Assembly: GCA_009801085.1 (NCBI GenBank)
Contig: VNWV01000005.1
Location: forward strand, 558,001-622,000
DNA length: 64,000 nt
Origin: Lasiodiplodia sp. COLG20
Lineage: Eukaryota > Ascomycota > Dothideomycetes > Botryosphaeriales > Botryosphaeriaceae
Direction of reading: 5' to 3'
How positions within the stretch are numbered: the stretch's first letter is position 1; the number at the start of each line of letters is the position of its first letter. Of this stretch, positions 48,537 to 58,127 are shown piece by piece. The notes below the pieces were generated by a model that had not been told where the DNA came from, did no database searches, and was given only the letters and a program-made list of their open reading frames with translations. A program made the translations under genes and the position numbers.

Positions 48537-48636
48537 TCTTCCGTGGCGCAATTGGCTAGCGCGTCTGACTGTTAAAGATATCACTTGTGATATCATTGCA
48601 ATCAGGAGGTTGACAGTTCAAGCCTGTCCGGGAGAG
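48537..48636 (+). tRNA. tRNA-Asn (anticodon GTT) with 26-nt intron
   Basis: A full cloverleaf folds by eye. The acceptor stem is TCTTCCG with CGGGAGA, and the D-stem is GCGC/GCGC. The anticodon stem is TCTGA/TCAGG with loop CTGTTAA (anticodon GTT at 48571-48573). The T-stem is GACAG/CTGTC with loop TTCAAGC, and the discriminator is G at 48636. A 26-nt intron (48575-48600) sits at the canonical position, one nucleotide 3' of the anticodon. It contains the perfect inverted repeat GATATCAC-TT-GTGATATC. A T-run at 48649-48660 is a Pol III terminator. Confidence 0.92.
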
Positions 48637-57002: not shown

Positions 57003-57998
57003 GGTGGTTATAGCGTGCCGCCGACGAGTCACGTTCCTTGTGACGTTGCCCACCGTCCTGATCCAGACGTTTGGGACCGGTGGATGCTGCAGGTTTCCGC
57101 AACTCTCTGATACGTTCAGACTGCCATGCATGACGCTTTGCCTCCTGCTGGCTTTTCTCCACAGCGTCTTCGGCTTTCACCGTGCACACCGTGCTTTTAT
57201 TACTGGGTTCTCAATTCTGGTCTGACTGGTGGAGAGACTTGCTTTTTTCTTTTTTGCTTTTGGCTTCCCTGGTTCCATCCTAGCTTAAATATCGTTTCTG
57301 CGTGTAGTATATCAACCAAAAATTCCGGCGAGGGGCGGGGTGCAAGCAGCGGCTCTTCTTTTGCATCAACGGATGGCGGTTCTTTGCGTTTTCTTGGCTT
57401 GACCAGTAGTTTTTATTTTCTCTTGGTTCTGCATAGCTTGCGAGGTGATATTCCCTCTTATTCGGGCAATTAGGAGGGATTAAGGCAACGGTGCATCTGC
57501 TATCGGTTTCTATACCACTTCTGCTTCTGCATATTATGATTTTCTGCTTGGATGTGAAAATGGAGCAACTCTGTCAGAGTACGAATCGGCGTCGCTATTC
57601 TCTCAACATGATTTGATGTCTCGTTTTGGGTTTTTTGACTTATTGTGATGATCCTTTGTTCTTCTGTTTCCTTGGCATTTCTACGAGCATTCTTTGATGA
57701 GAAGGAGTGTGGCAATCTTTAACGACTTTTGGTAACGAAGGTAATGCACAACCTGGACCCAGCGCAACGCCATGAACGAGTTTCGAACTGCAATTTTTTC
57801 TATCATTATCCCTTGGTGGATTCATGTTAATGGCAGGGCAGCCAGTCAACGCTCCAGGAGAATCGTCATGCACCACGAAAACGTTTGGGTGAGTCATTTC
57901 TCGGGTGTGTGGGCCCAAAACGAGATTGATGGAGCCGGCTCCAACCACTTAGATTGAAGAGCACGAAAACAAAAAGTGCAAAAAAAAAAGCCAATATC
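57003..57998. other. Intergenic: NRD1-like 3' flank
   Basis: About 1 kb, T-rich after 57230, as expected for a fungal 3' UTR and downstream region. The A-run at 57980-57989 is the Pol III terminator of the minus-strand tRNA beyond it. No coding gene is seen. Confidence 0.5.
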
Positions 57999-58127
57999 TA
58001 GCTGCGAATGGTTTCGATCCATTGTCCTCCGGGTTATGAGCCCGGCGCTGTTAAGGTTGTTAGTGAATTTGTTTGATGGTGGTTTGTGGATGAGAATTGC
58101 TTACCGCTTCCGCTGCGCCACGCAGCT
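57999..58127 (-). tRNA. Initiator tRNA-Met (CAT) split by a spliceosomal-type intron in the D-stem
   Basis: Read on the minus strand, exon 58127-58105 (23 nt) and exon 58047-57999 (49 nt) join to a 72-nt initiator tRNA. The acceptor stem is AGCTGCG/CGCAGCT with discriminator A. The D-stem is GCGC/GCGC, the anticodon stem CCGGG/CCCGG with loop CTCATAA, and the T-stem AATGG/CCATT. The T-loop is ATCGAAA, whose A54 and A60 are initiator hallmarks. The insert at 58104-58048 (57 nt) lies between positions 24 and 25 of the D-stem, not beside the anticodon. It has a GTAAGC donor, an ACTAAC branch sequence and AACAG acceptor. The A box (exon 1) and B box GGATCGAAACC (exon 2) are intact and a T10 terminator follows 9 nt downstream. 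The tRNA identity is secure; how the insert is removed is inference. Confidence 0.9.

Follow-up and report, generated by a model that had tools for sequence, protein, structure and literature searches.

Initiator tRNA-Met genes of Lasiodiplodia sp. COLG20 very probably carry a spliceosomal (U2-type) intron in the D-stem

The initiator tRNA-Met gene of the fungus Lasiodiplodia sp. COLG20 is interrupted in its D-stem by a 57-nt insert bearing the donor, branch-site and acceptor signals of an mRNA intron, and an insert of this kind occupies the same site in each of the four initiator genes found in the assembly. We conclude from sequence, with a probability of about 0.9, that a spliceosomal (U2-type) intron resides in a functional, Pol III-type initiator tRNA-Met gene, in every copy found, and that production of the initiator tRNA would be spliceosome-dependent.

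The window analyzed here, a stretch of 64,000 nucleotides, carries the split gene at 58127-57999 on the (-) strand, on which all the features of the gene given below also lie; the gene was read directly from the letters. The 5′ exon (58105..58127; 23 nt, tRNA positions 1-24) pairs with the 3′ exon (57999..58047; 49 nt, tRNA positions 25-73), and the anticodon CAT is within the latter (58038-58036). Between them, the insert (58048..58104) opens with the donor GTAAGC (58099..58104), contains the branch site ACTAAC (58059..58064, branch A at 58060) and closes with the acceptor CAG (58048..58050). As the original prediction had it, removal of 57 nt at position 24/25 leaves a perfect cloverleaf: the joined exons make up 72 nt, with 21 of 21 pairs formed. 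The three mRNA-intron signals that it read in the insert are likewise all in place. The exon/insert boundary has a one-base G/G ambiguity (24|25 or 23|24), and 24|25 was chosen as the junction because it is the sole option that gives the insert GT...AG ends.

An A box (TGGCGCAGCGG, 58110..58120) lies in the 5′ exon and a B box (GGATCGAAACC, 58010..58020) in the 3′ exon, each with identical letters at all four initiator loci. Both were called against the box consensus, and we take them to be the internal promoter elements of Pol III. A 10-T run (57980..57989) is the likely Pol III terminator, and T-runs of 5-10 start 10-20 nt downstream at each of the four loci. The letters of the window tRNA show A1-U72 and an anticodon loop closed by three G-C pairs, together with the T-loop AUCGAAA. 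A1-U72 and the three G-C pairs above the anticodon loop are marks of an initiator tRNA. The A54-U55-C56 triplet is given as an initiator mark in PMC3978253. In unconstrained folding the 72-mer kept the acceptor and T stems, and the D/anticodon region paired otherwise; it is therefore homology and pairing, rather than the minimum-energy fold, that support the cloverleaf.

The original prediction had left it to a genome-wide count whether every initiator gene carries the insert. Three queries were run against the assembly of this one genome (43.5 Mb, 88 contigs): the 5′ exon 23-mer (≤3 mismatches), a pattern of the 3′ half (35 places, ≤3 mismatches) and the joined 72-mer. Each query returned the same four initiator loci, on contigs C4, C45 (the window locus), C12 and C67, and at all four the insert is at the same exon junction. 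The 5′ exon 23-mer is identical at C4 and C45 and has 2 mismatches at C12 and C67, and every 5′ exon match among the four loci has a 3′ half downstream. In a backwards control, allowing 3 mismatches gave 2 chance matches for the 5′ exon, where the real four have 0 or 2 mismatches, and none for the 3′-half pattern. No uninterrupted initiator gene was found in the assembled sequence at ≤3 mismatches to the patterns, a reach that a copy in an assembly gap, or a more divergent one, would escape; the 72-mer matched only positions 23 to 72 at each locus. The count is therefore four genes found, four of them with the insert.

The original prediction offered reverse splicing as an example of how the intron may have been gained. 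A donor-intron search of the genome with the window insert returned only the insert itself; the other three loci were also not returned, so this search is weak for diverged copies. The exon-donor motif had 0 matches in a viral contig collection and a single match, to a bacterial MAG, in a genome contig collection. The latter was taken as chance because the tRNA 3′ half was absent from the stretch viewed.

The four genes are of two types with two genes each (C4 = C45 and C12 = C67). The types differ at six positions, all in the acceptor and T stems, where they make three compensated pairs, and each of the four joined tRNAs forms 21 of 21 cloverleaf pairs and has the anticodon CAT and an initiator T-loop. 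When the 3-kb loci were compared, similarity among the four flanks was not detectable. A TATA-like TATAWA is present ≤60 nt upstream at C12 and C67, and was not found within 60 nt upstream at C4 or at the window locus. Given unrelated flanks, and no difference between the exon types other than the three compensated pairs, all four initiator genes look functional.

The inserts are 59, 57, 55 and 54 nt long (57 nt in the window). GTAAGC opens and YAG closes all four (two with CAG, two with TAG), and all contain ACTAAC or an equivalent (CTAAC in 4 of 4), with the branch A always 12 nt from the last base of the insert. Outside these signals, pairwise identity of the insert bodies ranges from 17/39 to 27/42; the C12 and C67 inserts have their first 21 nt in common and are divergent after that. 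Invariant columns account for 14 of the 15 signal positions vs. 11 of the 45 others (Fisher p = 3e-6), a test that is only indicative, the sequences compared being related. Each insert was shuffled 300,000 times by mononucleotides: the strict set GTAAG/CTAAC/YAG never appeared for any of the four, and a relaxed signal set came up 0, 0, 2 and 1 times. A pseudogene or chance was rejected in view of the recurrence in four copies, the compensated pairs and these shuffles, and recent duplication or a repeat family in view of the dissimilar flanks in the 3-kb comparison.

All four inserts thus have the characters of U2-type introns: (i) a GT donor consensus with an AG acceptor; (ii) CTRAY, suitably spaced from the end, the branch-to-acceptor distance in fungi being 6-36 nt (PMC5832005); and (iii) a length of 54-59 nt, vs. 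49-151 nt for ten mRNA introns of the window. The latter were obtained by spliced alignment of Diplodia seriata proteins to three window genes, CSE1, a PMP47-type carrier and PMT2, with boundaries from a custom script. D. seriata was the best named match (exon identity of 94, 96 and 98% for CSE1, PMP47 and PMT2, respectively); the protein matches were clusters at 90% identity, and nearer relatives may hide behind this name. These matches put the fungus within or close to the Botryosphaeriaceae (Dothideomycetes). Eleven introns were aligned, and the ten GT-AG introns were used (151, 53, 55, 54, 56, 53, 49, 53, 68 and 51 nt; eight of them of 49-56 nt). The excluded GC-AG call, in PMT2 at 43838-43788 (-), is probably an artefact near the variable N-terminus. 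CTRAY was present within the last 35 nt of 8 of the 10 introns, the ends were YAG in 8/10 and AAG in 2/10, and 4 of the 10 donors were GTAAGC or GTAAGT. The tRNA inserts are thus in the size class of the window mRNA introns, with a stronger consensus, and the proposal that 57 nt falls within the local mRNA-intron range held for these ten introns.

A tRNA family search gave at least 60 matches (63 of 1009 candidates scored). The control set consisted of 48 of these; the 12 on C47, a contig taken as mitochondrial, were left out. ARAGORN called a tRNA in 48/48 and flagged an intron in 21 of them, at positions 34-41 in the anticodon loop; two Leu genes (L047, L048) and a Gln gene (L055) have inserts that ARAGORN left unflagged and that the Rfam alignment places in the anticodon loop. 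Canonical eukaryotic tRNA introns (37/38, endonuclease) are, like the initiator inserts, in tRNA genes, but they are in the anticodon loop, and the donor-branch-acceptor order GT...CTRAY...YAG was found in 0 of the 48 other nuclear tRNA genes among the matches listed. In budding yeast, ordinary tRNA introns do not build up when the spliceosome is blocked with pladienolide B (PMC12350175). Unusually long anticodon-loop introns with no mRNA-type signals were seen in tRNA-Gly GCC (L060, L072-L075; 65 nt), tRNA-Ser GCT (L061; 66 nt) and tRNA-Ala AGC (L054; 52 nt). Other tRNA types may carry D-arm introns, since the family search is blind to them. A control pattern for elongator tRNA-Met had 0 matches and says nothing on elongator genes.

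Among the alternatives, we consider it improbable that the insert is an ectopic intron excised by the tRNA endonuclease under guidance of a bulge-helix-bulge (BHB), as in the red alga Cyanidioschyzon merolae, with the exons then sealed by tRNA ligase. The fungus should have the enzyme, because ordinary anticodon-loop introns are present. Ectopic eukaryotic tRNA introns are known from the nucleomorph of Guillardia theta, where many are without a defined BHB, and from C. merolae (PMC3978253); a missing BHB alone is therefore not proof against the endonuclease. At the insert junctions, however, no BHB could be fitted in eight tests, with 2 of 4 pairs of the central helix formed in seven and 3 of 4 in one. 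Because, in addition, the insert is at 24/25 and not at the 37/38 site of the endonuclease, removal by this enzyme is unlikely, and endonuclease cutting would not preserve GTAAGC, ACTAAC and YAG at constant spacing. The C. merolae and G. theta introns are likewise outside 37/38, D-arm included (PMC3978253), and are ascribed to a BHB and the endonuclease, whereas the inserts described here combine the lack of a BHB with full mRNA-intron signals. The original reading, an mRNA-type intron in a tRNA gene, is thus strengthened by invariance at 14 of 15 signal columns, motifs and length like those of the window introns, the lack of a BHB and the absence of this pattern from the 48 other tRNAs. A group I intron was not indicated either. 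The catalytic core of such introns takes a few hundred nt, the inserts have 54-59 nt, and Rfam found a single tRNA and nothing else in the window.

It is about as improbable that the interrupted loci are dead, with the mature initiator tRNA made from an intact gene that is absent from the assembly. The assembly has 88 contigs, and gaps are possible. Dead copies, however, would show drift in the exons as well as in the inserts; perfect exons and three compensated pairs were observed at four loci with unrelated flanks, with only the inserts drifting. The dead copy that the original prediction kept as its alternative is accordingly disfavoured by the lack of an intact match in the assembly and by the three compensated pair changes between the exon types. 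The least probable alternative is that the insert is retained in a working tRNA whose junction loop is enlarged. The unspliced form can build 3 of 4 D-stem pairs along with the T, anticodon and acceptor stems, at 0.2-2.7 kcal/mol above the free minimum, but retention would not explain why inserts of variable length have all kept their donor, branch and acceptor signals, and we know of no enlarged initiator tRNA of such a kind.

Under the preferred reading, a spliceosomal intron in a working gene, Pol III would transcribe the split gene from its intact A and B boxes and stop at the T-run; the insert, lying between the two boxes, would only widen their spacing. The spliceosome would then use the donor at 58104 and the branch A at 58060, excise the 57 nt up to the last base at 58048 and join positions 24 and 25. 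End processing may precede splicing, since in the precursor the acceptor, T and anticodon stems can form and the D-stem can form three of its four pairs. The intron would be older than the present form of the four copies, with either one gain before duplication or later spread among the copies. As all four copies now have the intron, the initiator tRNA would need the spliceosome, and so would translation initiation.

ARAGORN called no tRNA in the window, and scans of the window with ARAGORN allowing introns of ≤150 nt and with the Rfam tRNA model did not see the split initiator gene. The sole window tRNA from Rfam and the intron-tolerant ARAGORN run is a tRNA-Ala(TGC) at 48537-48636 (+), in which ARAGORN reads a 26-nt anticodon-loop intron. 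Such interrupted genes escape both tools here, a blind spot, so that genomes apparently without an initiator tRNA may hide further cases.

Introns have been placed in comparable RNAs before. In a bacterial initiator tRNA gene, an intron of the self-splicing ribozyme type has reportedly been found; it is a ribozyme, and given the size of the core of such introns the 54-59 nt of the present inserts are too short for one. Spliceosomal introns also occur in ascomycete nuclear rRNA genes, e.g., the 18S rDNA, and reverse splicing has been proposed for them. Here too an mRNA-type intron sits in a structural RNA not made by Pol II, but the host is a Pol I rRNA. U6 snRNA, in turn, is a Pol III transcript. 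As of 2017, frequent interruption by introns was known among small structured RNAs for U3 and U6 alone (PMC5832005). The U6 introns of fission yeast and other fungi are likewise mRNA-type introns in a small structured RNA, but the host is a spliceosome component, not a tRNA. The single U6 match in the present genome (L021) seems uninterrupted. The introns of fungal U3 snoRNA, present in most Pezizomycotina, are canonical GT-AG introns with the branch sequence RCTRAC in 129/138 and mostly CAG acceptors (PMC5832005); the spliceosomal signals are alike, and the host is a snoRNA rather than a tRNA. Two U3 matches in this genome (L067, L068) seem uninterrupted, as the whole model is covered in 218 and 216 nt (alignments not viewed), although most Pezizomycotina have U3 introns.

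No described case of a spliceosomal intron in a tRNA gene was met in the literature searched, from which subscription papers were mostly out of reach. As far as could be seen, the tRNA as a host class, the essential initiator included, is new, and the intron would work like those of U6 and U3.

Introns of tRNAs and of mRNAs are held to be separate worlds with separate enzymes. If the reading given here is true, a spliceosome-spliced initiator tRNA crosses this divide in an essential gene and couples splicing to translation initiation; the Pol III substrates of the spliceosome extend beyond U6 and U3; and the four genes offer a dated test case for intron gain in a structural RNA. For this fungal lineage, we regard it as likely that (i) the sole source of initiator tRNA would be an obligate spliceosome substrate, so that splicing capacity would set the capacity for translation start; (ii) selection acting on an essential Pol III RNA would maintain the near-consensus signals GTAAGC and ACTAAC and the fixed 12-nt spacing; and (iii) tRNA would stand as a class of spliceosome substrate.
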